Assembly: GCA_018398765.1 (NCBI GenBank)
Contig: JAHBMJ010003661.1
Coordinates: forward strand, 22,501-83,881
Length of the DNA stretch: 61,381 bases
DNA from: Chromera velia
Taxonomy: Eukaryota > Sar > Chromeraceae
Direction of reading: 5' to 3'
The notes under the pieces were generated by a model. It worked only from the letters and a program-made list of their open reading frames with translations, did no database searches and had not been told where the DNA came from. This document shows, in pieces, positions 4,701-60,500 of this stretch. Positions within the stretch are counted from its first letter, which is position 1, and every line of letters starts with the position of its first letter. A program made the translations under genes and the position numbers.

Positions 4701-6971
4701 ATGATGACTTCCCAGATGTCTGTCCCCTACTACGGGGACACCATGAATCCAGACCTCCGGAATGAACGCGTCGGGTCAGTCAGTCAGTCCGGCAGGGAGC
4801 ACGCCTGCAGGACCACATGCGCCTAGCTGTCTGCTGTAAAGATTTCTTGTTCTGTCTCTCAGTCGAAACATGCGGACGCTGGTGTCTTTAAATCGAAGAG
4901 CAACATTCGTGTGCCTGCCTGTCCCGGTGAGTGCAGAGCAACCTTCAAGGATACCGACATGACTCAAATCCTGTACGGGGAGCAGTATCTGACCAGACTT
5001 GCTCGGCTCAGGTCCGCATGTGGTGATTTGCTGTGAATGTAATATTACTGCATGTGTCTGGCGCATTCGCTGGCAGCAACCCTCACTCCTCCCATTCCCT
5101 TTTCTGCGCATGCACGGTTACCCTGAAAGATTCTGGTGCAAAAGACGGAGTCCTGTGCTGAAAGGCGTCTCCTCTCCTCTTCGCTTCACTTCTCGTCACC
5201 TCCTCTGCCACCCTGGCCCACCTTTTTGGTACCCGGGAGTGTGGAAACACAGATGTTGAAATGCTGCGTGTGGTCCTATGGCAGCAGACTTCAGCCCCCT
5301 CCTGCGTGTACGTCCTGTGTATACAGAAAAATGATGGCCCACTCGCCCAGTGCGGACCTAAAGGACCTCTGGCAGGGCGGGAAATACGACCGGTACCTGA
5401 AGGCGTGCGAGCGCGCGTATGACTACGTTCGGTGAGTGCCGGTAAGAATCATTTTGTTCTTGGGATAGAACTTTGCGAGTGAAAGGATCTTTTATACTTG
5501 GGCGGAAGTGCTTCGGTTCTGTTGGTTCGATCGTGTCGATCTGGAGATGAAATCTTCGTTCTCGACAGAAGTACAGGAGTGTTTCTGTTCTCCTCGGTGT
5601 TGAGTTTTGTGCGCGGTGAGGCGACGAGAGCGATACCATTTGGTATTTTTTTTGAAAGCAAAAAGAAGAGGCGGGTGGAGAAATGAAGAGTTTGTGCTTG
5701 TACTCATGTTTCCCACCCACCCTGACCAACTTGTACTCACTGCTGATGCACGGTCGGTCTTTCAAAACAAAATGTTGATAGACGACCAAAACGTTGTGAT
5801 GATGGTGGCAGAAGTCAAGCTCGGCCAACTCTAAGCTTCTCGGCTCGTGGTTTCTTTCTTTCTTTCTGTGTTGTACGTTTGTTTGATTTGATTTCGTTTG
5901 CTCCCCTTTCTTGCTTGCAGCATTTCCCGCCAACACCAGCTTTCGAAGGAAGACGGCGACTTGCTGATGATTCTTTTCGGTGAAGACTTTTTCCTGGCAC
6001 TCCATATGATCATGTTCCTGCCCTCTCTGGAGGTCAGAGAGAGAGAAAGGAAATGCTAGAAAGAGAAGTTTCTTCCTGCGGAGGACGTCTTCCTTCTTAT
6101 CTTTTTGATATTCGTCACATGCAGAGACAGACAAATGACAATACCAATGTACATTTTCTACCGCAAGATCACCTGAAAACCCGTATTTTGTTTCAAATTT
6201 TTTTTCCCGAATTGGACAAGTGCCACAGTGCAACTCTCCTGCCTCTCCTCACCTGCAGAGCATGGCAGACGACGAGCAGCAGAGAGAGTGGCTCCCCCTC
6301 GCTCGTGACTTTCGGATCTTCGGGACCTACGCCCAGACGGAGTTGGGCCATGGATCGAATGTTCCGGGAATTGAGACCACTGCGGAGTTTGACAAGTGAG
6401 TGCGTGAGTGATTTGAAAAGAAAAAAAAGTCGAAAAAACTGCACTCATTCCTGGATTGAGACTAGGCACTCATTCCTGGATTGAGACTAGAAGAAGATCA
6501 GAAGTTCGTGTAAGGTCCGCCAAGTTAGCGATCGCTCGCAGCTGAAACAACGGAAACGAATCAGAATTTGAATGAAAAGAGAGACCGACTGTAAGTGAGT
6601 GTAGCGAAAATCCATAGGAGAGACAGACAGGGGAAATTGTCTTTTGTTTTGACACCCGGCGTAGAGGAGAGTCGAATGCCATCGGAAGGGGGGGGGGGGC
6701 GAGTGTCTGTGAAAGCTCCTTTGATGCCTTTGTTTCCTTTCCCGTTCCTTGTATGTGTGCACATGCGCAGGAAAAGCGACCAATGGGTTCTGAACACACC
6801 GATGCTGACTGTTAGTTGGTTGGAGTTGCGTGAGGGCGAAAGCGAAGGGCCAAAAAGTTGAAGGAAAGCACAGAGGGATGAGGGGGATAGAAACAATAGT
6901 ATGAAACGCGCCTGTATGCATGTGCACGCATGGGCTTTTTTGCTACCTTTCGGTTTGCTTCTGTCTCCCTG

Positions 6972-7002
<31 letters not shown>

Positions 7003-8893
7003 TTCTTTTTTTCTGTACATGTGTTCGTGTGTACCATCTCTTTGTCCGTTTTTGGCCCGTTTCCATTTTTTTTTTCTGTTCTTTCTGGTCGAAGAGATTC
7101 AGGCGTACCTTGGTTGGTGCATGTGAATGTGCGTGAGTACAGCATCTGTGCATTTCTCTATATATGTGTATATACGCACTCGTGCATACATACGTGTATG
7201 TGTGTGTGTGGCTTCGTGCAGTCCACCAAATGGTGGCCTGGGGGACTTGCCAAGTGAGTTGCCTGCACGTTTATTGCCTGTCTTTTGTCTGTATTCCTCG
7301 ATTGTTGATTTTTCTGATGCGTGGGTCGCCCCCTTTTGTTTTCCTTTTTCTTCTTTGCGCTGGAGACCCCGACCAGCCTTTCCTTTTGTTTTTGAAGACC
7401 CCCATCTGTTTGAAAGGTCCTTTCTTTTTTGTCACGGAGAAAGAAGACACATCTGTGAGTGAGTTAGTGAGTCAGTGAGTCAGTCTGCTTCTTCGCATCC
7501 GCATTCTGACCAAGGAGAGAAGAAAGAAAATGGCCTTCCAAATTTCTTTTCTGCAGGTCCTGCACTCACTGCATCTTGATGGCACGCGTGGTGATTGACG
7601 GGAAAGATTTCGGGCCGCACCCGTTTTTCTTTCAGGTCCGCAACCTGGCTGTCGAAAGAACCGTCGGCTGTTCGTTTTGAGCAACAGCAGCAGGGGCCTA
7701 TTGGTGCCTGCTGTGCGTTTTTTTTCTTACGTGAATCTTCATTTGGTGCATCAGAAGCAGTTTCTCTTGTGGATGCCAAGCTTTCTGTACGCCACATATC
7801 GCATAGTCAAACGACGACGAAGGAATGCTGTTTTTGTCTGCCGTCCCGGAACTCACAGTGTTCCTTCCTTCCTTCCACACACTCGAATGAATGCATGTCC
7901 GTAGTGCTTCTCTTCTCCCCGGCCCCTAGGAAGGATCCTCATGTTCATGCTTGGATAGAAAATGTGCAAACTGGTCTACGGTGTTGCTTTTCTCTGCGTG
8001 CGTCAATACAGGTGCGTGATCTGAACACTCACGAAAGCCTTCCCGGCGTCTCTCTTTGGGACATCGGGTCGAAACTTGGGTACAATGGAATGGACAACGG
8101 AGCGATGCAGCTGGCGAACGTGAGGATCCCCAGGAGGAATCTCTTGATGAGGTCGGTCAGTCGAGGGAATGGGAATGGGAGCGGAACGGAGGAGGATAGC
8201 AAGGGAAGGATAAAGGGGGAATGAGGTAGATCGGCTGTCCCCTCCCCTTTCTTTCTTTCTTTCTTTCGTTCTGCCCTTCCAGTCTGACTGCCTCGTTTTG
8301 AGAATGTGCTTCGATTCGAGTCCTGCCTGTGTGTTGCTTTACCTGTGTATTTCTCTAATTTCTTCGTTTTTGGCTGTGCGGCTGCATGAGATCTTCTTCA
8401 GGTGTTGACGGACGATGCTGTCCTTGTTCCTCTGGCAATGACCTATTTTTTTGCTTTCCTTGTGAGTGACTGTATTCAGGTACACACGAGTGGACAGGGA
8501 TGGGACCTACTCGAAGGTCGGATTGTTTGCGTACTCTCTCCCTCCCGACTCCTCCTCCTTTCTGATCTTCAAGAGAAAAAGAAGAGAAAAAGGGTCCATC
8601 TGTCGGAGCCGTCTCTCTCCCTTGCGACTTTCATTCCATACCCTGTCTTGGTATCATTCTCGCTTGCTCGCTTCTCTTGTTCCTTCCTCCTTCCTTCCTT
8701 CCTTGTTTCCTGCCTTGTTCTGTCTGTCGATTAATTTATACTTTTCCGGCATCTTCGTTTACAATTTTGTTTCCGAGGTGGAGAGAGGGTGAGCCAGTAG
8801 GGAGTGTCACAGCGGAGAAAAGAATGAAATGCATCGTCCAGGCAAGACGTCTGTTCTCTTTCTGATCGAAGCTTTTATTTGCATTCATTCTCT

Positions 8894-8927
<34 letters not shown>

Positions 8928-11900
8928 GTCACGGCACGGCATTCAGGTCGGGGACCAGAAGATGTTGTACGGCGCCATGACCTACACGCGCATGTCCATC
9001 ATCGCGGCAGCAGGGGCACATCTGGCCAAGGCACTCACCATTGCAGTCAGTCTGTCAGTCTGTTCCTTCCTTCGACTTTCTCTTTTCCTTCCCCTCACTC
9101 TGACTGCATTCACACACAGAGGGATGACACGCGTGAGGCCCTCACGGCTGCATGCAGGGAGCCAACCAGCAATCCAATCAGAGGGTCTCTTTATGACCCC
9201 CCTTTCCTCCCCCTGTAACTGCAGATTCGGTACAGCGCAGTGCGTCGCCAATTCGCCCTTCCTGGAGGCGGCCCCCAGGGCAAAGGCAAGGCGGAGGAGG
9301 AGGAGGCAGAGTTCGAAGCAAGCACCGAGGTGGACCCCTCTATTTCTGGACCTCACGCAGAAAGAGAGGCAAGGAAGGCCGAGGTGGACGGGGAGCGCGC
9401 AGGGGAAAATGTGGTGAAGCGGGTCAGCACGAGTCCCTAGCAGTTGTTGACACGTCGGAAATATTGTTTTTGTTCCAATCGTTCGGACACAATTGATTGA
9501 CTGCACGTGACAAACACACAGATAGATTCACGCATGCCTTGGACTGAACTAAGTGGGTGGAAAAGGAACGAAGAAACGACAAGCGGTCCATAGTTGGAAC
9601 GTGCAAGAAGAAAGCTCATTTAAAATGCTGAAAGCCCTTGCAGTCTGATAAATGTCTGGCTGTTTCGTGCCCTCTCCGCCCTTTTTGCTTCTCCGTTCAT
9701 TGAATGTGTGTTCCTTTTTTCATCCTCTTTGTTTTTCATTTACTCTCTGCGTGTGTGTGTGTGTGCAGGAGATGCGAAGAGAAGCCGCAAGGGCGTTGGA
9801 GAAGGAGGTCCAGGTCCGTCAGTAGGTAGCTGCACGATAGATCCTTTTTTTTTCTTTTGGGGGGGTTGCTGCGCGCTTTTTTTTTGTGTGAAATCTCGTT
9901 GCGGGAGGGATTTGTGCAAGAGGGCCCTCCCTCGTTGGTAGGCGACAATCAAAGGGTTGATTTGATTTGTCTGAGAAAACAGAAAACGAGATCGACGGGC
10001 ATGCGGCACAGAGTCGCGATGCCAGCATGCATGCACCACACACAGAAAAAGACAGTAGATTGTAGAGGAGAGATGAAGTGCCGAGGAATAGGGAGATGCT
10101 CTGCGGGTTCTGGTCCATGAGATGATGCCTTTTCAGGAACTTGAAATCGTTGATCGATTCACTTCTGATGGAGATCGTCCGAAGGAAGGCTGTCTCTCGA
10201 TCTCGCTTGCCAGGCTCGGGTGATGAAGTCTTCTAAGAAGCTGCCCCCCCTTGGTTCATTTCTCTCCCCTCCTCGCATTTCTTGTCAGCTGCATTCCTGC
10301 CCTTTCTTTCTCTTCAAAATTCTCTTTTCCTTCGTATTTGTCACTTTCTTCTCCCTCCTTGCAGGTTCTGGACTACAGTTCCCAGCAGTTCATTCTGTTC
10401 CCCCTTCTAGCAGCAGGTGAGAGACAGAGAGAGATTCTGTGATCGCATCCGTTTCCTATCTTGTTTTGTCCGTCCGTGCTTTTGCTACGTAGAGAAACGC
10501 TGAGAGAAAAAGTCCGTGCAAATTGTCTTGACGAAATGAGACTTCTTTTTCACAATTTCCTTCTTTCTGTCTGCCTTGCTTTGCTTCGGCTTCAGGCTAC
10601 GGTATGCATTTTGCTGGGAAGTGGGTGAGGTCTGCGTACGAGTCTTTCATGGAGAGGGCGAGAGGGGGAGACTTCTCGCGGCTTCAGGACATTCACGTGA
10701 CTACTTGCGGTGAGTTGCGGAGTGTTTTTGGTGCAGTCGGAGAGAGGAGGCTCTTGTCTTTTGTTTGCATATGCGCTTTCATGGAAACCGGAAGTGGCGT
10801 CTCGAACACTCAATTCCTGCGAATGGTCTTCTGAAGGATCTGAAGGGTTTCTTCTTCATATAAGTCAGCTCATTGTTGCAACTTGTGTGTTTGTATGGGT
10901 GCGCATTACTTGGGTTCCCTGGAGAGATGTGTGATGTTGTCGCGTGCTTTCTTCTCTCTCCCTCCCTCTGTATGCGTGTGTGTGTGTGTGTGTGTGCGTG
11001 TGTGTGCGTGTGTGTGTGTGCGTGTGTGTGTGTGTGTGTGTGTGCAGCACTGAAGGCTCATTGCACCCAAGTTGTGGCAGACGGAATGGAACAGGCCCGA
11101 CGTTCTTGTGGAGGACACGGGTATCTTCTGGTAAGTGCCCGCCCATATGCTGTTTTTTTTTTGCGTGACATGGTACTTGACTGCCTGTAGGCATCTCCTC
11201 CTGTGAGGCACCTTTTCGTTTCCGTCTCTGTCTGTCAGTGCTCCTTTGAAGCGAGTTGGGGCCGACGGGTGTGTTGCTAGGTGCTTTGTGTCCTGCGTGT
11301 GATCTGCACACTTGAGGAATTCTTGCCCTATTCTTCAACTCTCTCTCTCTCTCTTGTGTCCCCTTGCTCTTTTCAGTCTGCCGGTATCGGGGGTCAACTC
11401 CAAAACTTTCTCTCTCTCTTGTGTCCCCCTGCTCTTCTCAGTCTGCCGGTATCGGGGGTCAACTCCAAAGCTTTCTCTCTCTCTTGTGTCCCCTTGCTCT
11501 TTTCAGTCTGCCGGTATCGGGGGTCAACTCCAAAACTTTCTCTCTCTCTTGTGTCCCCTTGCTCTTTTCAGTCTGCCGGTATCGGGGGTCAACTCCAAAA
11601 CTTTCTCTCTCTCTTGTGTCCCCTTGCTCTTTTCAGTCTGCCGGTATCGGGGGTCAACTCCAAAACTTTCTCTCTCTCTTGTGTCCCCTTGCTCTTTTCA
11701 GTCTGCCGGTATCGGGGGTCAACTCCAAAGCTTTCTCTCTCTCTTGTGTCCCCTTGCTCTTTTCAGTCTGCCGGTATCGGGGGTCAACTCCAAAACTTTC
11801 TCTCTCTCTTGTGTCCCCTTGCTCTTTTCAGTCTGCCGGTATCGGGGGTCAACTCCAAAACTTTCTCTCTCTCTTGTGTCCCCTTGCTCTTTTCAGTCTG

Positions 11901-12743
11901 CCGGTATCGGGGGTCAACTCCAAAACTTCACCCCCCAAGTGACCTACGAGGGTGATTTCGTTGTCCTCTCTATCCAAACTGGTCGCGCCCTGCTGAAACT
12001 CGTCGCAAAGAAGATGAAGGGAAAGCCCACCAACCTGCCTCCAGAAAGCGAGTTGACGTATATCACAACTCACGATCCTTTTGCGGTACGTATGCTGCTT
12101 GTCGTGACTTTTTTTCTTCTTCTTCTGTCAGTTTTCCTCGAATTTTGTTTTTGCCGCCATAAATGAGTTTTCTGTTGAAACATCGTGATCACCAAATGCA
12201 TGGATGGATCCGCGTGGGCGGTTGTTCAATGCTGCTGTGTTTTCTTTCTCTGTTTTGAGTTTGAGTCATTGAGGAGTTGATTGGAATCCTTTCGGATGAT
12301 TCCTTCCGTGCGTGCAGACCCACAGCCCTTCCGCTCCTGGGTCGCTGCTCGACTTTTCGTGGCAACTGTCCGTCTTCAGGAGGAGGGCTTGCCATCTGAT
12401 CATGACAGCAGCAAAGAAGTTTGCAGACTCGGCAGGGGCAGGAAGAAGCCCGGTAGGTTTCCATCCTTTTTTTTCAAGTTCGGTCTCACCTTTTTTGGCC
12501 CTAAACCCCCTTTCTCTCGTAGCGCGCTCTTCGTGTCCCTTCAAGGAGTCAGTCTAAATGCACGAACGATTTTCGACAAGGGCACTTGGGACACCGTTTG
12601 GTGGTGGAAGCGGGTTTTCTGGGAATTCCGTCTTTTTTGATTGATGCATTTTTTGTGCTTGAATCCACAGAATCCCGATTTCATTCTTCAATTCATTCCT
12701 TTTTTTTTTCTCCTCAATTGTCGCTCCCTCCAGTTAACTCTGT

Positions 12744-12780
<37 letters not shown>

Positions 12781-12988
12781 CAGCTGCTGGCCCTCGATGA
12801 CGTGAAGATAGACATGTGCAGAGTGACCAAAGCCCACGCAGCTGTGTTGGTTCTCACGGTGGGCTTCTGATGTTTCTGTCTTCCTGTCTTGCGCTCTCTT
12901 TTTGGCAGCATCTCCTTCTTTCTTTGTGTTGGGGGGTGGCGGGGATTTCACTAAGTCTTTGGCCATATCTTTCCTCTCCCTAGCTGTG

Positions 12989-13024
<36 letters not shown>

Positions 13025-13057
13025 ATGAAGAAAAGAAGGGAGAAGAAGAAACATATA

Positions 13058-13091
<34 letters not shown>

Positions 13092-13120
13092 GTCTGTCTG
13101 TCTCTGTCTGTCTGTCTGTC

Positions 13121-13159
<39 letters not shown>

Positions 13160-13255
13160 CTGTCTGTCTGTCTGTCTCTGTCTGTCTGTCTGTCTGTCTT
13201 CCTGTCTATCCGAAAGAAAGGAAGTGAAAAAGTGAAGTAAAGGAAAGACGATATA

Positions 13256-13286
<31 letters not shown>

Positions 13287-15031
13287 CGAACTCTGGTACC
13301 CTTCCACTGAGAGAGCGCGCCAAAAGAAGAAAGAAAGAAACAGAAGAGAATGAAAAAGGTAAAAAAGGGAAAGAAAAGACGACATAGTCTGTCCGAAAGA
13401 AAGGAAGCGAAAAGAGAAGTAAAGAAAAGACGAAATAGTCTGTCTGCCTGTCTGTCTCAATTTCTGTCCTTGCTCTCGCTAGAAGGCCCCCATCATGAAT
13501 GGACGAAACGGAAGATCCAACGAGCGATCGAGACGGTCGCTCAGCAGAAGAGATTCGTTCCAAAGCATGCAGATGCACACTAGAATGAACAGTGAGCAAT
13601 TGTGTGCATGCATGTATCCATACATTTGCGCGCTCATACCGTTACCGATGCTTGCATAATATTCTCAAGTGCAGAAGTTCCAGCAAGCAGTCGAGGAAGT
13701 CGAAAGGAAGTGCTCTCAGGCGTCCACTGTGGGCCCTCCTCTGCGAACCCTGTGCAACCTGTACGCTCTCTCGGAGATGGACAGCTGCATGGGTGACTTT
13801 GTGATCTCCAAAGCGCTCCCTGTGGGGGGGGGGCTTGCGGTAAGCCGTCTGCTGCTTTTTGCTTATTCTTCCTGGACGTCGGTGAATTGTTCTTTTCTCA
13901 TCTGTGAGTGTCTAGTAGCGCCTTTCCTTTTTCGTTTTCTTATGGAGTTCAGACTTTGTTTTCTCTGGGGAGCTATATAAAGTGTTCTTCTTTCTAGGTG
14001 CGTGACCAATTTTTGTCGTCTCGCTTGCCCCGCTGATTCAGCTCCTGCGGTCTTTCGTCTTCTTTCTTTTTCTGTATTTGAGTCTTTTTGATTTTTTTTG
14101 CAGCCTTTTCGAATTTCTGAAAGAAGCATGTGCTTTTATCGTGGTGATGTTCTTTTCTGATCCTTCATATGTTTTTTTTTTTTTTTTTTTCTTGCCTCTT
14201 AACATGATGCCATGCAGGACAAGATTCTTGAGGAGATGAAGAGGCTCTGCAGAGAACTCCGGCCGAACGCCGTCTCTCTCGTAGACGCTTGGCAGTTCCC
14301 CGACTATCTCCTGAACTCCGCTCTCGGCAGATACGATGGCAGGGTTTATGAGGTGCGCTCTTGCTCTTGAGTCTCGTTGGTCGATTTCCTTTTTCTGCAT
14401 GCATGGGGGGGGCATCGGATCCCTTAGTTCTTTCTTCCCTTCTCGCTTGTCCCTCGACTGACCAAGAGGATCACAGGTTCCCTCTCTTCCTTTCACGTGA
14501 GTAGCTGCCTGGTAGGCCTTCCTCTTGCTCTTCTCTCTTCCTTACTCGATCCCTGCCTCCTTCCCTCCCCGCAGGCATTGATGGACTCCGTGAGACATGA
14601 GCCCAACAACACCAGCGATGTCCATGAGGTCAGCCCTGATAGGATAGAGGGAAAAGGTGGTCTCTCGCGATCGAATATGTAAATCTGCTTGTCTCTTGCA
14701 CTTTCTCTCTCTTGCTCTCTTCTGATCGGGAGAAGGCGCGAAAATGTCAGGCATTCTTCCTGAAGACACCAATGAAGAATTCATTCGTGTGAGGGCGCAT
14801 TCATGTTTTCCTCTTTACTTCTCTCCATCTCTGACAAGACATCCTGTTCAGTTTTCCCCTTCTCTTGCCGTATCCTCCTTTCTGGCTTCATGAATATTGT
14901 ATCAATACTAATATCGATATAATAAATGATGTATGAATGTGCAGTCCTACTACCGGAGCCTTCAGTACATTCTCCATCCTGAGAGAAAGCAGCAGCAGGG
15001 CGCGGGCATGCCTCTCCGGTCGAGGCTCTAA
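4701..15031 (+). CDS. Peroxisomal acyl-CoA oxidase, 23 exons
   Basis: Flavoenzyme of peroxisomal beta-oxidation: acyl-CoA plus O2 gives trans-2-enoyl-CoA and H2O2. Exons: 4701-4774, 4937-5011, 5327-5431, 5921-6032, 6259-6395, 6771-6810, 7222-7253, 7557-7635, 8012-8151, 8480-8516, 8947-9045, 9225-9422, 9769-9813, 10365-10416, 10596-10709, 11048-11130, 11897-12085, 12318-12452, 12784-12858, 13675-13839, 14218-14352, 14575-14628, 14945-15031. They total 754 codons with every phase consistent. Family marks: start MNPDLRNER (ATG at 4743; an in-frame ATG lies at 4701), [22 protein letters not shown], the flavin-domain CGGHGY, and TYEGD carrying the expected catalytic Glu (about residue 492). The C-terminus SRL is a type-1 peroxisomal signal. 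Exons 12-13 add about 55 charged, coiled-coil-like residues absent from animal enzymes. Introns are pyrimidine-rich, many with GTC donors. The intron 16/exon 17 junction is amplified ninefold. Confidence 0.93.
6455..6490. repeat. Short tandem duplication in acyl-CoA oxidase intron 5
   Basis: The block GCACTCATTCCTGGATTGAG and the few bases after it (GACTAG) occur twice in direct succession just inside intron 5. It is a small instance of the local tandem duplications seen throughout this window. Confidence 0.8.
10975..11047. repeat. (GT)n tract used as the 3' end of intron 15
   Basis: About 65 bases of GT repeat with a few GC steps run directly into TGTGCAG, the acceptor of exon 16 at 11048. 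The polypyrimidine tract normally expected here is replaced by alternating GT. Exons 7 and 13 also follow short GT tracts. Confidence 0.85.
11341..11936 (+). repeat. 65-bp tandem array carrying nine 3' splice sites
   Basis: Eight full 65-bp units plus ends span the intron 16/exon 17 boundary of the acyl-CoA oxidase. Each unit holds a CT-rich tract, the acceptor TTTTCAG, and the first 28-30 bases of exon 17 (starting TCTGCCGGTATCGG). Acceptor-proximal exon starts fall at 11377, 11442, 11507, 11572, 11637, 11702, 11767, 11832 and 11897. Only the last is followed by the rest of the exon. Copies differ by only a few substitutions (for example CTTCTCAG in unit 2 and AAAGC for AAAAC in some), so the expansion is recent or homogenised. 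All three frames are open across the array. Confidence 0.97.
12735..12783. repeat. (CT)n polypyrimidine tract at the acceptor of exon 19
   Basis: A CT dinucleotide run of about 35 bases ends in CTTGCAG, the acceptor for exon 19 (starts 12784). It serves as the polypyrimidine tract of intron 18. Confidence 0.85.
12983..13455. repeat. (TGTC)n microsatellite cluster in acyl-CoA oxidase intron 19
   Basis: Three runs of TGTC/CTGT units (12983-13023, 13058-13208, 13256-13286) and a shorter one near 13438-13455 are separated by A/G-rich spacers that share an AAGACGA(C/A/T)ATAGTCTGTC-like segment. The spacer-plus-run module therefore seems to have been copied several times within the intron. Confidence 0.85.
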
Positions 15032-18889: not shown

Positions 18890-20220
18890 AAAACAGAAAA
18901 GAAAACCAGAAAAATGAAACTGGAGCAGACGTCATACACGCAGACAGACAAGAAAGATGAAGACTGAAAGGTCGTTATGTGAGGAGACAAGGAAGATGAA
19001 AGTGAAGCGGACTTTCTGCAAGCAGACGGGCTAATGACAGGCTAGCAGATAGAAAAGATTGATGAAACTGGAGAGGCCGTCATATACGCAGACAGGAAAG
19101 TTGGGAGCGCCGAGACCCGTCATGCAAGCAGGCAAGACGGACGAAAGCGGAGGAAAGTGGAAAGTCATCGTGCATGCACAGGAAAGATGGGACCTGAGAA
19201 GACGTCATACAAACCGACAGGAAACATGGAAGCGGAAAAGCTTTCATGCAAGTCGACAGAAAAGATTCATGAAACTGGAGAGGCCCTTAACACGCAGGCA
19301 GGAAAGATGGAAGCTAGCGGAAAGGAGTCATGCAAGCCGGCAAGATAGACAAAAGTGGGGAGTCGGCGTGCAAGCAAACAGCGAAGGTGGAAGCTGAGAA
19401 CACGTCATGCAAACCGGCAGGAAACATGGAAGCAAAGACGCTTTCATGCAAGTCGACAGGAACGACGCAAGTAGAGAGGTGGTCAAACACGCCGGCAGGA
19501 AAATTAAGATGGAAGCGCGGAAAGCCGTCATGCAAGCACACACGACAGGAGAAAGTAGAGACCCACCAGGCAAGCAAAAAGGAAAGATGGGAATATGAAA
19601 GTGGAGAGGTCGTCATGCAAACAGACAGAAAGATGGGAGTGGAGAGGCCGTCGTGCAAACAGACAGAACGATGAAAGTACAGAGGCCTTCGTGCAAACAG
19701 ACAGAACGATGAACGTGGAGAGGCCGTCATACAAACAGAGAGAACGATCAAAGTGGAGAGGCCGACATGCAAACAGACAGAACGATCAAAGTGGAGAGGC
19801 CGTCATGCAAACAGACAGAAAGATGGAAGTGGAGAGGCCGTCATGCAAACAGACAGAACGATCAAAGCGCAGAGGCCGTCATGCAAACAGACAGAACGAT
19901 CAAAGTGGAGAGGCCGCCATGCAAACAGACAGGACGATCAAAGCGCAGAGGCCGTCATGCAGACAGACAGAACGATCAAAGTGGAGAGGCCGTCATGCAA
20001 ACAGACAGAAAGATGGAAGTGGAGAGGCCGTCATGCAAACAGACAGAACGATCAAAGTGGAGAGGCTGTCCTGCAAACAGACAGAACGATGAAAGTGGAG
20101 AGGCTGTCATGCAAACAGACAGAACGATGAAAGTGGAGAGGCTGTCATGCAAACAGACAAAAAGATAAAAGTGGAGAGAAGTTCAACGTCTGCGTGTCTA
20201 TCTTCATATAGGAATTCTGG
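18890..20220. repeat. 38-bp minisatellite, homogeneous toward its right end
   Basis: The unit begins GTGGAGAGGCCGTCATGCAA and continues ACAGACAGAACGATCAAA, 38 bases in total. Copies are diverged between 18890 and 19600 and nearly identical between 19600 and 20170 (about 15 units). Because 38 is not a multiple of 3, the three plus frames each cycle through the same three peptides and all stay open, giving frames of 125-165 codons rich in Arg, Gln and Asp. These are probably not genes: they have no unique sequence at either end and no non-repeat coding context. Confidence 0.93.
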
Positions 20221-34471: not shown

Positions 34472-35688
34472 AGAGAGACAGAGAGAGAGGAGAGAGAAAG
34501 AGAGAGAGCGAGAGAGAAAGAGAGAGAGAGAGCCGGGGTTCGACAGCAAGAACAGGCGATCAACGCCCATTCCCAGACGGAGGCAGATTCAGGACAGAGG
34601 ATGAAGAAGCACCGGGCCATACAGACAGCATGAAAGCATCAAGCGTCCCAGTCGTTCACGAAGACTGCAAACCGAATCAGAGAGAGACAGAGAGAGAGAG
34701 AGAGAAAGGCCACACGCACCCACAGACCCGAGGCCTCCTTTGTGGCCACAATGTTGGGCACCTTGGAGAGTCTGCAGGCAGGAGGCAGGAGACAGCGGGG
34801 GAAGGAATTGAATACAATGGGCACCCACACAGCCACAGAGAACACAGGGAGAGAGAGATGAAGGGAAGAGAGAGGAGGAAGGGAGATAGAAAAGAAAGAA
34901 AAAGGGTCAAGAAACGAAGACCGAAAGAGAGAGAGAGAGAGGGAAGATGGAAGGAAGGAAAAAAAGGGATGGAAGGAATTCAGACAGACAGGCGGTATGC
35001 GCAATGGACAGAGGCGAACCAACGAGCGAACCTTTGACATAAGGCAATGCACCACAGTATTAAGAAACAGCGAATTCAGTATGTTTCTTTCTGGCTTCTC
35101 TAGAGCTCTGACCTCTCCTCTCTACATCTACCTCCATGCCCCGTCTTCTTTCTGTTTCCTTCCTTCCCTCCCTCACCTCGCTGTTGTCTCTGGCAGCATG
35201 TCTACTCCAGTTCTCCCGGGCACGTTGTACAGAATGATGGGCAACTCTGGCGCTGCAGCGGCCACTGTGGCGAAGTGACAGTAGAGGCCGTCCTGCATGC
35301 GGGCAGAGGAATCACACATGCAGAGAGTCAACACGAGAAACAAATATGCGGCTTGGCCTTTTTTTTTTTTCTGCTCTCCCTCTTAGTCCTTCAAGGAAGG
35401 AAGGAGGACACGCAAATTTTTTTTTCTGCTCTCCCTCTTAGTCCTTCAAGGAAGGAAGGACACACAATTTTTTTTTTCTGCTCTCCCTCTTAGTCATTCA
35501 AGGAAGGAAGGAAGGAGGACACACAAAAGGACCGAGAGACAGACAAGAAGGTAGCAAGGATACAGGAGCGCATCGACCGGACAGAAGGGCGACGCAGAAG
35601 TGTAGAAAAATGCTTCCACCTGCTGTGTGCCTGCTTGCACATGTTCAAGACCACATCTCCCTATCTCCCTTCCCTCTCTGTCCCTGCA

Positions 35689-45281: not shown

Positions 45282-45854
45282 TCACTCGATGTTGATCTGC
45301 CGAGCCTGGTGCTCGGGGGGAGGCAGCTTGGGCACAGTGACCTCCAGCACTCCGTCGGTGAACTTGGCCTTGATGTCCTCTTGGTTGGCCGTCTCCGGGA
45401 GTCTGAGAGCTCGGGTGAACTTTCCAGAGGTCCTCTCTCTCACGAACCACTGTTCGTTCTCCCCCTTCTCCTCCCTGGCCTCCTCACGCTGACCGGAGAG
45501 ACGGAGCATCCCGTCCTTGACCTCAATCTTCACGTCTTCCTTCTTCACACCCGGAAGGTCGGCGTGAACAGTCAGACGGTCCTCGTAGTCTCTCACATCC
45601 CAGCGAGGAGCGAAGGCGAACATCGGACTCGCACGGCGAACTCCGAGCCGGTTCTCCCGGCCAGCGCCGGCGCCGTGAGGCACAACCTGTTGCTGCTCCG
45701 GGGTGGTGGCGCGGGTCCTGTTCTGGTCCTCGAGCATCGGGTTCGGGTTCTCCCAAGTTGGAACGAAGTCAGAGAAGAGATCGCGGTGCATTCTGTCCAT
45801 GTCTGCGTGCATCCGCTGAATCTCTCTGAAGGGATCGAAGAAAAAGCTCGACAT
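45282..45854 (-). CDS. Small heat-shock protein, Hsp20 / alpha-crystallin family
   Basis: ATP-independent holdase that binds unfolding proteins and forms oligomers. A single exon of 190 codons with its ATG at 45854. Residues 1-80 are a variable N-terminal arm (start MSSFFFDPFREIQRMHADMD) with alternating aromatics. The alpha-crystallin domain spans about 84-178: WDVRDYEDR, then HADLPGVKKEDVKIEV, GMLRLSGQR, and FTRALRLPE. The strand-8/9 consensus is present as GVLEVTVPK. The tail ends in INIE, which supplies the I-x-I anchor used in oligomer assembly. No signal or transit peptide is evident, so the cytosol or nucleus is likely. Lack of introns fits a heat-induced gene, whose message must be made when splicing is impaired. 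I could not identify a perfect heat-shock element in the 150 bases upstream. Confidence 0.95.
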   Translation of the reverse strand: MSSFFFDPFREIQRMHADMDRMHRDLFSDFVPTWENPNPMLEDQNRTRATTPEQQQVVPHGAGAGRENRLGVRRASPMFAFAPRWDVRDYEDRLTVHADLPGVKKEDVKIEVKDGMLRLSGQREEAREEKGENEQWFVRERTSGKFTRALRLPETANQEDIKAKFTDGVLEVTVPKLPPPEHQARQINIE

Positions 45855-47244
45855 CTTGGATGACAGAATGATCGGTTCAGAAGAAGAAGGCTCTACAGCA
45901 CACAGCGTCTGTTGGAAAACCAGCTAGCAATTCTCGGCAAGCTTCTGCGTCAGCCAATAAGCGTCTCGTTTTGATCTTCAACAACAATTTAAGCAATCTC
46001 TTTGAAGTGGTGATTCTATTTGAACGATGTCTCGATGACTGGTAGATGGACCTTGTTGGGTTGGGAAGTGAGCTGTTCCCTTGAGCAACTGTTTTTTTCT
46101 CTTTGTGAAAGAAAGAAAAGGACGCAGGACACCGAATTGGGAGACAGGACGTCTCTCATGCAGTGTCGTGTGATGCACACTGACGTCTGAATGCATCTGA
46201 CGCATTCTGACGCACGGAGAATCACGGAGGTCCGTGCGAATGGCCCGGAAAGCGAAATCTGACGCACTCCGTGCGAATGCCCCGGAAAGCGATCGAAATT
46301 ACTCTTTTCATCGTCGCTCACGTTGTGTTAAGTGCCCCCTCAGCTCTATTTCCGGGACATGCATCTGCATGCGTCAGATTTCAATCCGAGATTCAGGTAC
46401 GATCATACGCACGCGCTTTCACCTCAACTCTTTGTAAGTGTCCCTTAGCTTCGCTTTCCGGGCCATGGTCCTGGAAAACGAAGCGGGGGGCACTTACTAA
46501 ACTTTTCCCAGCAGCTTTGGTCGGTATCAGACTATATCGGACTAAGCAATATGCAATCCAATATACTAAGGAGAGCTATGGTCTAGACTCTTAGTTCCTC
46601 TCACAATACCTCTCACATAAGATAAGTTAAGCTGGAGGTAGCTGGATGTAAGTTACGCTAGCCATAGTTTGGGCAATTAAACTCTTAATTACATGAGTAG
46701 TTAGTTAGTTAGTTAGAGGATGTCTAACCCCAGTTGGAGCGCTAAGCTTCCGGGCGGCAACTATTATAGTAACTATAATTCAATATAGAGTAGTATGGAG
46801 AGATTATGGAAATGGAATCATGCAAATACAAACAAACAGTAGAATAGACTATACTATTTACTACATATACATACATATGTGTTTAATCAATACTAATGAA
46901 TCAATCAATATACGTGCTAGGAGATGAATCAAAATTATGAAATCTTTAAATCTTTTTTTTCTTAACTTCCTGTTCTTTTGATCATCAAAAGCAGTGACAG
47001 CATGAACGTTACCGATTCCTTAAATTGCTACTAACCTTTTTGAGTCAAGTAACCAGAGATGTGACCAGGACTTGGAGTCTTGGACCGTTGGACGTCTCTA
47101 AATGACAATTCAGCTACCAGTTAGGAAAACTGTCGTGAGCAGTTGACATGACATAAATCAAGATTCGAGCTCTCATGATCCCTCGACGCTGTCTGATTCG
47201 TTCCAGCGGTAGACCAATCAGCTGTCCCGTTGGCGATCCATGCA
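45855..47244. other. Intergenic region upstream of Hsp20
   Basis: Contains the Hsp20 promoter side (45855-46020), a cluster of inverted and direct repeats (46230-46497, listed separately), and an AT-rich tract from about 46590 to 47100 including a TTAG run (46697-46716). No supported gene. Confidence 0.45.
46230..46497. repeat. Foldback cluster built from CCCGGAAAGCGA motifs
   Basis: GTGCGAATGGCCCGGAAAGCGA (46232-46253) is directly repeated with changes at 46270-46291, and its inverse TTCGCTTTCCGGGCCATGG occurs at 46450-46468. GAAATCTGACGC (46254-46265) is matched inversely by GCGTCAGATTTC (46371-46382). The last 64 bases (46434-46497) can pair end to end: GTAAGTG...GCTTCG...TTCC with GGAA...CGAAGC...CACTTAC. 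It has no coding capacity and could be a foldback transposon remnant or a structured regulatory element. Confidence 0.6.
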
Positions 47245-49025
47245 TCAATTGGAAAGGGGCACGATTTCTTCTTCTTCAGCGACAGCGCTTTGCAGCGCCA
47301 CCTTGGGGGGAAGCAGGTCCCGTTTCTGCATACAAACACAACAGATCGAAGGATCAGTCTCTGACAGAAAGAAAGAAAGAAAGAAAGAAAGAACACAAAG
47401 AGGGAAGAAGAAACCACGGCTGGCAGTGTAAGGGATGAATGAAAGCCGTGCTACCCAGATGATATCGAAAGACGGTTCAGTAACCTCCTGCATCTCTTTG
47501 CTTCTTCACGTACCAACTTGTCGTCCACCTTACTGAATGTCAGCACGCAGACTTTCTAAGTCGACTGGCCGACTGACCTTCAGGACGACCTTTGCGGACA
47601 GATTCTCATGGGTGAGTTCGCACACCTCCCCCACAGGTACGGTGTCTGCGAGGAACTCCAAGAGAGTGGCCGTCCATCGCACGAGCTGGGGGGCCTTCCA
47701 CCTGCATGCCATCACGTGCATGCACAGACAGTGGCAACGGGCCATTATCGTGGTGTTCTCGTACTGTCTTGGTGCATGCATGCACATTCCACTGGGCCAA
47801 CAGGCCTGGAGACAGACGGCACGACGAGGTACAAGCACGAAGAAGGAAGAAAGAAAAGTAGCGGCCCACGAATCGAGGACGGATGGATGAAAAACAAGAT
47901 GCCGGAAAGGTTTTCTCCCCCACAGAAAGAACCGATATGAACACCGAATGAAACAAGCTCACCCCGCTGAATCCAACCGCATCCCATCTCGTTTGAGGGT
48001 CGGTACCACCGAATGTTCCTTGCTTGAGAGCCTGCCTATGGCAATGACTTACAGGTATCTTTCCTTTCTGGCCTCCCTAGTAACGTGCATTTACTTTCAC
48101 ACAGGGGGAAAAAAAGACTTACAGGTATCTTTCCTTTCTGGCCTCCCTAGTGACATGCATTTACTTTCATACAGGGGAAAAAAAAAAGACTTACAGGTAT
48201 CTTTCCTTTCTGGCCTCCCTAGTCACGTGTTGGATTTGGGGCAGTCTCTTCACCGTCATGTTCCCCATCGTCTGTCCCCTCTCTGCATCTGCCACCTGCG
48301 TGCAATCACCCAACCAACCAACCACACAGACGAACACCCTTATCCACACTCACACGCACTGAGAGGTAGGACGGGACGGAGAAAGAGAAAGGGACAGAGA
48401 GGGAGAGAGAGAACGGGGGAGAAAGGGGGGCGGGACGAAAAGATAGGAACGAAGCGAGAAAGAAAAAGAAACACATGTCTATTCCCTCACGTCCCTCTAT
48501 GCCACTCAACATCGACGCAGCATCGGCCAACAGAGAGGCTTCTGGGGAGAAGGAGGCAAACTTCAGAGGGAAGGAAGGAAGGAAGGAAGGAAGGACTCGA
48601 TCAATTCATCCATCGTATGGTTACCCAATTCAGCCAATCAAATTCACCCACCCACCGCCAATCTTGAGGGACCCCCAAGCATATGAGAGACCCAAGCGGA
48701 TCGCGCTTGGACCTCGTCCCACTGACGACCACCTGCGGAAACAAAGAGAAACCCACCCCGACACCTATGCAAGAAAGTATGCACCCGCTAAGACTTGATA
48801 GATAAAAACAGTAAACGAAACAGGGGACGGAGGACACACAGAAGAGAGTCCCGTGACTGCAGCCCGTACACTTGTGATGGAGAGAGCCCCAAGAAGAAAG
48901 AGAAAAAAAAGAAAAAAGAAAAGGAGGGGACGAACGACGAAAGAAAAAAATAAAGAACAAATAAATAAAGAAATAAAGAAATAAATAAATAAAGAAAGAA
49001 AGAAAGAAAAGAAAGAAAGAAAGAA

Positions 49026-57073: not shown

Positions 57074-57575
57074 GCCGTGACCGTCTCGAGAGTGAGAAGA
57101 AGCTTTCACGCATGCAATGGGATCGAAGGGACTGAAGTGATGGAATTCGGAGCAGGATGAAGCAGGCTCTGAGAATTAAGCTTTTGAAGAAATCTGCATG
57201 ACTCTGTCGGAAGAACACTTAAATTCACGTCATTTCACGTCTCCTGATAACAAGGGGCCCCGGCATGCCGGGGCCGTTAATTTGCGCCTTCATCTTAATT
57301 AAGCAACTAGATCGATCGAGCTCCGTGGTCCACAATTAACAACAGGCACACAAATGGCACACAATGGCACACATGGGCAGACACGACATGACACGACACG
57401 ATCGGCAGACATAGTGGTGGATCAGTTCCAAGAGGTCGAATCGAACTGTAACGAGCACACGAGAAAAAGCTGAAAGGGTCAGCAAGTTTGTTTCTTGTTT
57501 TCGGTGGCCAGCCCGTTGTTGATTTACGTGTCTGTGCGGGTCGCTGTCTCCTTCTTACAGATCGGCACTCAGCTG
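57074..57575. promoter_or_regulatory. Shared promoter region between the KH and deacetylase genes, with a 20-bp palindrome
   Basis: About 500 bases separate two head-to-head genes. At 57256-57275 lies a perfect 20-base palindrome, GGCCCCGGCATGCCGGGGCC, flanked by AT-richer DNA. Near 57350-57400 the word CACA(A/T)GGCA repeats. The sequence TTCTTACAG at 57552-57560 looks like an acceptor, so the deacetylase may have an extra untranslated or short first exon in this interval. Confidence 0.55.
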
Positions 57576-60500
57576 ATGAGTTCGTCCACGCACCACCAAC
57601 AGGTGGTGGCGGTTGCGTATGAGGAGGATTATTGTCTGAAGCACGAGGCTACACGGTTTCATCCTGAAGGCCCCGAGAGATTGAGGGCCATTTTGAAGAA
57701 GTTGAGGGAATCGAAGTTGATACACAAACTTCGGAAAGTGAAATCGCGTCCTGCCACCGACGAAGAACTGACTCGTGTGCATGACGCCGATTATGTTCAG
57801 CGTCTTGAGACTCTTTCCAGTCAGCTGAGTGAAAAAGGCTCCTCAACAAAGTATCCGGTCAAGACTGATGGTAACGTTCCCTACATCACCCCTGTTGGAG
57901 CAGACACGTACGTCTGTGAGCACACGGCCAAGGCCGCACGACTAGCGGCAGGAAATTGCGTTTCTCTGGTGAACAAACTGTTCGCAGATGACGCCTACTC
58001 AATACGGAAGGGAATGGCGCTCGTGCGTCCCCCTGGCCACCATGCAGGTCGTCGGAGTTTCCAGGGGTTTTGTTTTTTCAATAACGTTGCAGTCGCAGCT
58101 GAACATGCTGTGAAAGCGTATGGGTGCAAACGTGTGTTGATCGTCGATTGGGACGTTCATCACGGTAACGGCACTCAGGAGATTTTCTATAGGGATCCGC
58201 ACGTCTGGTTTCTGTCTGTTCACAGGTACGGGACAAAATTCTTTCCTGGAACGGGGAAGGGCCCAGAGGTTGGGTCCGCGGCGGGGAAAGGGAGCAACAT
58301 CAATGTACCCCTCGAAAAGGGCTTTGGGGACACTGACATGTTTGCAGTATTTCAGGATGTGCTTCTCCTGTCCATCCACTCCATTAAGCCTGACTTCATT
58401 CTTGTGTCGTGCGGATTCGACGCAGTGGAGGGGGATCCCTTGGGGGAGTGTCACGTTTCCCCGGGTCTGTTTGCATGGATGACAAAGCAGGTATGCGTCC
58501 TTGCTGACCTCTACGCAAAGGGGCGACTGATGCTCGTGTTAGAGGGGGGGTACAATTGCTCCGCAGTTGCTGAGTGCACTTCAGAGTGCGTGAGCGCCCT
58601 GATCGAGTCCGTTGAGAACCCAGTCAGTCGCCTCCTTACCAGTCAGCAAGCCGCTCCAGGCCTTGCACTCCCTTCAGAGGCTCGGCTTTCTTTCTCGAAC
58701 GATATGTGCCCCTCCCGAGAAAAGGGGGGGGCTTCTCTAAAAGCAAAGAATGGAGGAGCAGAGAAGGAGAGGGAGAAGATGGGCGGAGAGACAGAAGGGG
58801 AGAGGGAGAGAGAAGTCACACCCCCGTCTCCATGTCACAGCAACACTGGTTCTTCCCTTTCGGTTTCAGGTCGGTTGACTCTTCTCTTCTTTTCTTTTCT
58901 TTTCTCTTGGCACTTCTTTCTCTTTTGTTTGTTTTATTGGTGGACCTTTTTTCACGTGCTCAGGGAGCAGGAATGATGTCTTGGTGGGGTCAAGCAAGCA
59001 TGCATATGGAACGCAAGGATGGACAGATCATGCGCTGTATTCCTTGATGAATTCTCTCTTTCTCAATTAATTGTTTCCCTTTCCGTGCAGCACTTGCGCT
59101 GCGCTTTGCGAAGTATCAATAGATCTGCAAACCCGCATCCGTCTCCATTTCCTGTCTTGTCAGAGCGTTATCTGCGGATAGCAAACTTTGGAATATGAAC
59201 AGTCTATCCACACATCCCTCACATGAATGCGCTCTTCCTTCCTTCCTTCCTGCATGTGCCTGCAGATCCCTGTCTGTTGTCGCCCTTCCATGCCACGCGC
59301 TTCGCACTTCTGAAACCCCCACCCCACCTGTCCATGATAGGAGGGGCACGGCTGCTCACTAGTTCTCTGTTCATGCACGGCGGCCTCCTCGGGTCACCAG
59401 CAGAGTCCGTGTCCCCCTCCCAACGGGCGGCGTCTGCCTCCGATGCAGACGTGCTTGTCCTGCCCCCAGTCGTTCCTTCCCTAGTTCTCACTCCAGGAGG
59501 GGGACCTGGAACTCTGTACCCCTCTCCGCTGCCCTCTGTCCCCATTTCTCAACTAACCGGGGAGTCAGTCGTCGTCAATGAGGGAGAGAAGGCCCCTCCT
59601 GAAAGTTCACCCGGTCATCTGACCCTTTCCCTGCCTCTCGTCCCCTCAGTCGACGGTATTTCTCTCTGTAGCGCTCCCTCTTGTTCGCACCACACCGATC
59701 ATGAGGAGGTCTCTTACTCCAGAGGAACCTGGAAGATCCTCGCGGAGGTCTGTACTCACCACGCAACCCCCCCCCTATGCCTCCCTGTCCCATCAGCCCC
59801 CCCGAAGAAGAAAAAAGGAAGAAAAATGACGAATTCCGCAACTCCAAGCGGGTCCCCCCACCCCTCCCCCTCCGCGATTTCATTTACCAGCCCCCACGCC
59901 TCCCCCCGTCTCCTTCCTGACCTCGATACCACAGCCTGGCTGAAATCTGCAGGGGACCCCTCAGGCTCTCACATGCAGACTCTCCCTCCTTCCAATGCCG
60001 GTCCCCTCGTTAGTAAAGGAAGTGGGGGAGAACAGCAGGAGGGAGACACGAACAGTGACGGTGTTGCATTCGAATTATCTGTCTCTGGAGACCTCAACGG
60101 ACCGGGATCTTTGTTCTCGTCCTTCCCCCTCACCCGAACCTCAAAAGAGGGAGGAGAAATTCAATCCTTGCTCCAGCAGAAGGACAAGGACAAAGAGGAA
60201 AGAACTACAGCAGCAACCCCTTCAGTCTCGTTTCAGGGCCCTTCGTGCGAAGAAGAGGGAGAAACAGAGCCTGGATCGGGAGTAGCACAAACACAGGGGG
60301 TGAGAGTTGTTAGAAGAGGGGGAGGGGACACTCGTGTCTCCGTCCCTAACCAAGCGAACCCGTCTCGTTGCCTTCCCAACATTGCCACCTCGTCGTCTGA
60401 CTCTGTTTCCTCCCCACAGGAGGAGGCGACTGGTCATGGAGATGCTTCTGAAACAGCACCAAAGAAGAAAAAGAAACCGAACAAGAAAGAGAGACAGAGG

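Follow-up and report, generated by a model that had tools for sequence, protein, structure and literature searches.

A nine-copy 65-bp minisatellite over the 3΄ splice site of intron 16 in an acyl-CoA oxidase gene of Chromera velia

In this work, we have used computational approaches to analyse a stretch of 61,381 nucleotides (hereafter the window) from the genome of Chromera velia, a photosynthetic relative of the apicomplexan parasites. Our results show that in the acyl-CoA oxidase gene of the window a 65-bp minisatellite of nine copies (11344–11928, + strand) lies over the boundary between intron 16 and exon 17, and that the public annotation joins exon 16 to the last of the nine acceptors contained in it. 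We consider it probable that this minisatellite was born by chance over the acceptor of intron 16, with productive splicing falling almost wholly to acceptor 9 and the eight copies upstream of it acting as leaky decoys. The array is likely neutral or mildly costly to its bearer.

The oxidase coding region (4701–15031, + strand) was modelled with 23 exons coding for 753 amino acids plus the stop, and Pfam ACOX domains are found in its product. The model is fully open and identical over 753 aa to the UniProt entry A0A0G4HS83 (Chromera velia); thus, the public annotation uses acceptor 9, joining the end of exon 16 at 11130 to an exon start at 11897. The available text of the genome paper (Woo et al. 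2015, PMC4501334) describes that annotation as predicted by Augustus with the help of intron hints from RNA-seq. Exon 16 (11048–11130, +) ends in GGTATCTTCTG in phase 0, and is followed by intron 16 (11131–11896, +), of 766 bp as annotated and with the donor GTAAGT, and by exon 17 (11897–12085, +), which has 63 codons (189 nt). Splicing to acceptor 9 gives a conserved oxidase protein, in which the glutamate E492, coded by exon 17 and placed 18 residues after the 474/475 junction, aligns to Glu421 of the acyl-CoA oxidase structure 1is2; we take this structure to be that of the rat enzyme, and Glu421 to be its catalytic base. When the protein was compared with the contigs of the window's genome, 17 of the 18 matches fell inside this gene and no second close copy was found; the remaining match (contig C3019) was considered as a second gene copy and set aside as weak (38% identity, E 1.6e-6). 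Other repeats are present in the gene. A (GT)n microsatellite runs into the acceptor before exon 16 (10976–11047) and a (CT)17 microsatellite into the acceptor before exon 19 (12745–12783), so that an acceptor with a repeat tract is found more than once in the gene, and intron 19 has long CTGT-type repeat tracts (12984–13290) with periods of 4 and 18. Elsewhere in the window, open frames code for a histone deacetylase domain (57474–58973, +) and for an HSP20 domain (45285–45923, −).

The array appears in the TRF output as a single entry (11344–11928) with a period of 65, 9.0 copies, 98% matches and 0 indels, and its head-to-tail, near-identical units of tens of base pairs are those of a minisatellite. 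Every unit has a CT-rich pyrimidine tract, TTGTGTCCCCTTGCTCTTTTCAG, from which copy 2 departs at two bases, and 32 coding bases belonging to exon 17, with CAG at the acceptor in all nine copies. Seven of the nine units are identical; copy 2 carries three changes and copy 6 one, which it has in common with copy 2. The nine acceptor AGs, all on the + strand, are placed at 11375–11376, 11440–11441, 11505–11506, 11570–11571, 11635–11636, 11700–11701, 11765–11766, 11830–11831 and 11895–11896, with a spacing of exactly 65. The initial annotation had proposed a row of near-identical acceptors at this exact spacing in the oxidase gene, only the last of them joined to the full exon, and this is borne out in the assembly. 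Its description of the unit as a polypyrimidine tract plus the start of the exon also holds, with the correction that the exonic part has 32 bases instead of 28–30, and the TTTTCAG it assigned to all copies is found in the rest but not in copy 2, which reads TTCTCAG. Its term 'complete acceptor module' is right in that the units are acceptor-like, but 'complete' is generous, as the branch motif yTNAy is absent upstream of all nine acceptors within 11250–11896.

How firm is the number of copies? The identical protein suggests that the window derives from the published Chromera assembly, which the available text of the genome paper describes as built from Illumina reads with velvet (k=71) and gap filled with Gapfiller and IMAGE (PMC4501334). 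Such a procedure could have produced the copy number, or even most of the array, while gaps were being filled over a short tandem repeat, and the k-mer content leaves room for the first of these: among sub-arrays of two to nine copies, seven were the fewest that gave the same sets of 71-mers and 100-mers, and a version with 14 copies also had the same sets as the nine-copy array. Nine is thus not fixed by the published data, since seven or 14 copies yield the same k-mers. On the other hand, copies 2 and 6 carry variants of their own, and none of the tested sub-arrays of two to six copies reproduces the k-mers, which argues that a multi-copy array is likely real. We therefore regard an assembly product as quite unlikely; provided that the k-mers are correct, about seven copies or more are credible, and nine should be taken as an estimate.

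The nine acceptors differ little in predicted strength. With a small matrix, built from the other 21 acceptors of the gene, eight of the nine scored 9.45 and copy 2 scored 4.8; these values fall within the leave-one-out range of the 21 (−1.2 to 19.8) and above seven of them, so by this measure the array acceptors are ordinary in strength, not strong. Being near-equal in sequence, they would be chosen by context. Only copy 9 precedes the full 189-nt exon with its own donor, while in the others 32 exon bases are followed by another pyrimidine tract. In classical experiments on duplicated splice sites, a site followed by a full exon is preferred to one followed by little exon, and otherwise the nearer site wins. 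Acceptor 9 would then carry most of the productive splicing, and the upstream copies would leak at some rate. The first-AG model, by which splicing takes the first AG that follows a branch site lying upstream, counts against this interpretation: it would favour acceptor 1 and leave most transcripts unproductive. Taken to its end, it would mean that the gene is mostly unproductive in the sequenced strain, with acceptor 1, the nearest to the original branch region, used first and most of the mRNA destroyed, the array being a slightly harmful recent mutation. A TCAAC (11335–11339, +), a weak candidate for the branch site, and a CT tract do remain in the intron upstream of acceptor 1, and the window's genome showed no second close oxidase copy, which also speaks for this reading. 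Against this, the public model, with its 23 exons all open, takes acceptor 9, and the other 21 introns of the gene skip an earlier AG placed 5–125 nt upstream of the used one, so an upstream AG is not decisive on its own. A mostly unproductive gene seems to us distinctly improbable.

The branch sites themselves do not help to choose between acceptors. In place of yTNAy, TCAAC precedes every acceptor, at 11394+65k in the units and in the original intron in the case of acceptor 1. Branch motifs are uninformative in this gene, as yTNAy was present in 13 of its 22 introns and at 408 of 950 random intronic points. A masking of acceptors by RNA structure was also considered and discarded: the predicted folding of a segment of 194 nt from the last units was no more stable than that of shuffled versions (z −0.19).

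What would each acceptor give? With a unit of 3n+2 bases, the frame is kept at each third acceptor going upstream from acceptor 9. Use of acceptors 1, 2, 4, 5, 7 and 8 would add 520, 455, 325, 260, 130 and 65 nt, respectively, and shift the frame, while acceptors 3 and 6 would add 390 and 195 nt in frame, that is, 130 and 65 aa. From acceptors 2, 5 and 8 the predicted stop is a TGA at 11940–11942 (+), and from acceptors 1, 4 and 7 it is a TGA at 11953–11955 (+); between these stops and the end of exon 17 there remain 143 and 130 nt, respectively, and six introns lie downstream of both. Under the common 50–55 nt rule of nonsense-mediated decay, these transcripts are predicted decay targets. The window's genome codes for UPF1 and UPF3 domains, which makes the decay of early-stop transcripts plausible; a UPF2 domain was not found in it by a search that was also blank in every control genome. 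Stray splicing to the six frame-shifting acceptors may thus end in early stops and decay. Splicing to acceptor 3 would place 130 extra residues, and splicing to acceptor 6 would place 65, after the GGHGY motif and shortly before E492, the residue aligned to the catalytic glutamate, and an oxidase with either insertion is likely inactive. Proteins carrying such an insertion were looked for in the databases. None of the 119 proteins covering the 474/475 junction, the query included, has an insertion at that point (among the best 120 matches, one did not cover it), and no array-derived peptide was found among 26 candidates at E 0.001 or better, in database proteins of about 325–1034 aa. A search for partial Chromera proteins over the junction, in proteins of about 173–551 aa, gave eight matches with a best identity of 44%, none of them named as Chromera.

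Another reading is a regulatory one, in line with the splicing buffer or length-variable switch suggested in the initial annotation. The array would be a rheostat tuned by copy number, in which nine equal acceptors compete, one in nine gives enzyme, and the gain or loss of units changes the yield. The acceptors are indeed near-equal (copy 2, with its 4.8 against 9.45, being the exception), the segment 11341–11936 has no stop codon in any frame, with the frame-shift stops placed just past the array, and the UPF1 domain is encoded. But the unit length is not divisible by three, so the same words of the unit are read in every frame, and stop-free units often arise by chance, in 16% of its base shuffles and in 33% of its dinucleotide shuffles, which makes the openness of the array unremarkable; moreover, the array peptide was missing from the database proteins of about 325–1034 aa that were searched, and tandem TTTTCAG arrays are not enriched over a reversed control (see below). 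We consider such a rheostat unlikely. Its more elaborate form, a heritable splicing dial in which one donor serves all nine equal acceptors, oxidase is made from the last of them only, slippage of units resets the mRNA yield and the reading frame cycles every three units, is in our opinion decidedly doubtful.

The units could alternatively be nascent introns or micro-exons, each with a cryptic donor, the array being removed stepwise. GTCTGC overlaps each array AG by one base and carries the +5 G that is present in all 22 donors of the gene, and the best of the five GTs in the unit, GGG/GTCAAC, scores 3.39, when one real donor, that of intron 6, scores only −0.04. For this last reason, the unit may hold a weak donor. 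However, both scored GTs of the unit (3.39, and 0.99 for GTCTGC) are below 21 of the 22 real donors, which fall at 5.79–10.59 in leave-one-out scoring, and values as high as theirs are frequent, as 829 of the 3619 GTs of the window score no lower than GTCTGC and 372 no lower than GTCAAC. The implied introns would also measure about 49–65 nt, far under the shortest of the gene (162). For the same reason, the low rank of the best GT, a micro-exon or nascent-intron origin was not favoured, and the donor scores, together with the short implied introns, lean against an array of mutually exclusive exons, in which every unit has its own acceptor and donor. Nor is the array of the recursive (ratchet) type, which needs AG/GT: the nine sites read AG/TC, and there is no AGGT in the 65-base unit. 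Judging from these scores, the units are most likely acceptor-only modules and not exons, and we find stepwise removal of the array highly improbable, even though the available text on a potato gene reports an intron gained by such a route (PMC4974935).

We propose that the array is most simply explained as a minisatellite grown from the CT-rich end of the intron. A founding duplication would have joined exon sequence ending in AAAACTT to the CT-rich tract, and the array would then have been enlarged through unequal exchange or slippage; the order of variants at unit base 62 (A G A A A G A A A) would fit the later copying of a block of four units. Coding and intronic minisatellites (VNTRs) are made of head-to-tail, near-identical units and are unstable by nature. 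It is likely that the array is a young minisatellite that happened to take in a 3΄ splice site.

The frequency of such repeats was estimated in a sample of 261,381 bp, consisting of the window and 20 stretches of 10 kb, the latter being the first 10 kb of evenly numbered contigs, whose ends may be repeat-rich. The sample contains 49 arrays with a period of at least 20, 16 of them with at least three copies and five with at least five, and minisatellites are thus common in the C. velia genome. Acceptor-like words reach at least 0.75 per copy in five of the 49, and in one of the 16 with at least three copies, which is the oxidase array, by a rough rule that passes only nine of the 22 real acceptors of the oxidase gene. 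A search for at least three identical acceptor-like octamers, equally spaced at 25–300 and in units more than 80% alike, recovered only the oxidase locus in the 261,381 bp; since the window was chosen for the oxidase array, an unbiased count has to rest on the other 200 kb, where it is 0. In the complete genome, three TTTTCAG at gaps of 33–63 nt gave 43 matches in 16 contigs compared with 95 for the reversed control, these being counts of matches, not loci, for one heptamer only. Arrays with TTTTCAG therefore exist elsewhere, and this count shows no enrichment of them. Among the other 15 contigs with matches, three were read and show acceptor-like arrays of 42 bp (L032), roughly 64 bp (L033) and roughly 49 bp (L034); a position at an exon edge was established for none of the three, and that of L032 looks intronic by eye. 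The L032 array (840–1135) has two CAG acceptor-like words per unit, and that of L033 (770–1230, −) a pyrimidine tract plus CAGGT in most units; having both AG and GT, the latter could be an intron-gain candidate. Within the window and outside the oxidase gene there is a 38-bp minisatellite of 15 copies (19598–20178), and two shorter arrays (35362–35512, 52 bp × 2.8, and 48046–48223, 70 bp × 2.5) carry roughly one acceptor-like word in each unit. No Pfam match was obtained for the long ORF that covers the second of these.

Nine near-equal predicted acceptors in cis, differing in their position and in what follows them, would represent a natural test of spliceosome choice, and the question that the array poses is whether the first AG or the AG with the full exon is taken. 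The array also suggests how a minisatellite can arise at the edge of an exon through slippage in the pyrimidine tracts at intron ends, which may be a step on the way to splicing noise or to the gain of an intron.

How does this array compare with known systems? It shares with minisatellites its head-to-tail, near-identical units, and differs in that its unit takes in coding sequence and a splice acceptor present in the annotation. Among tandem splice sites, the initial annotation had considered that known acceptors come in groups of two or three; according to the available text of the human catalogue (TASS, which includes NAGNAG), about 99% of the sites are in clusters of two to five, although the catalogued sites are within 30 nt of each other (PMC8055015). 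As in TASS, sites of the same type stand in a row and some shifts are in frame and some are out, but the predicted Chromera acceptors are nine and 65 nt apart, beyond the ≤30 nt spacing that defines the catalogue (PMC8055015). In fission yeast, 24-nt tandem repeats with splice-site words have been linked to intron gain (PMC3629103). As far as the available text describes them, these are also multi-copy arrays at a splice junction, and in one of the two genes a spliced EST departs from the annotated intron; there the repeats are tied to a new intron, whereas in Chromera it is an acceptor already there that is repeated. Of the published cases that we found, the closest, again from the available text, is that of the potato RdRp gene, in which a two-copy tandem duplication runs from an intron end, with its pyrimidine tract and 3΄ splice site, into the beginning of the following exon, and a cryptic donor GTAAG makes a new intron (PMC4974935). 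It differs from the Chromera array in having two copies instead of nine, and in its GTAAG donor, while the GTs of the Chromera unit score below 21 of the 22 real donors. The Chromera array thus has its kind of duplication in common with the potato gene, and its row of same-type sites in common with TASS, but it stands apart by its spacing of 65 nt and by a unit with neither AGGT nor a donor of the usual strength.
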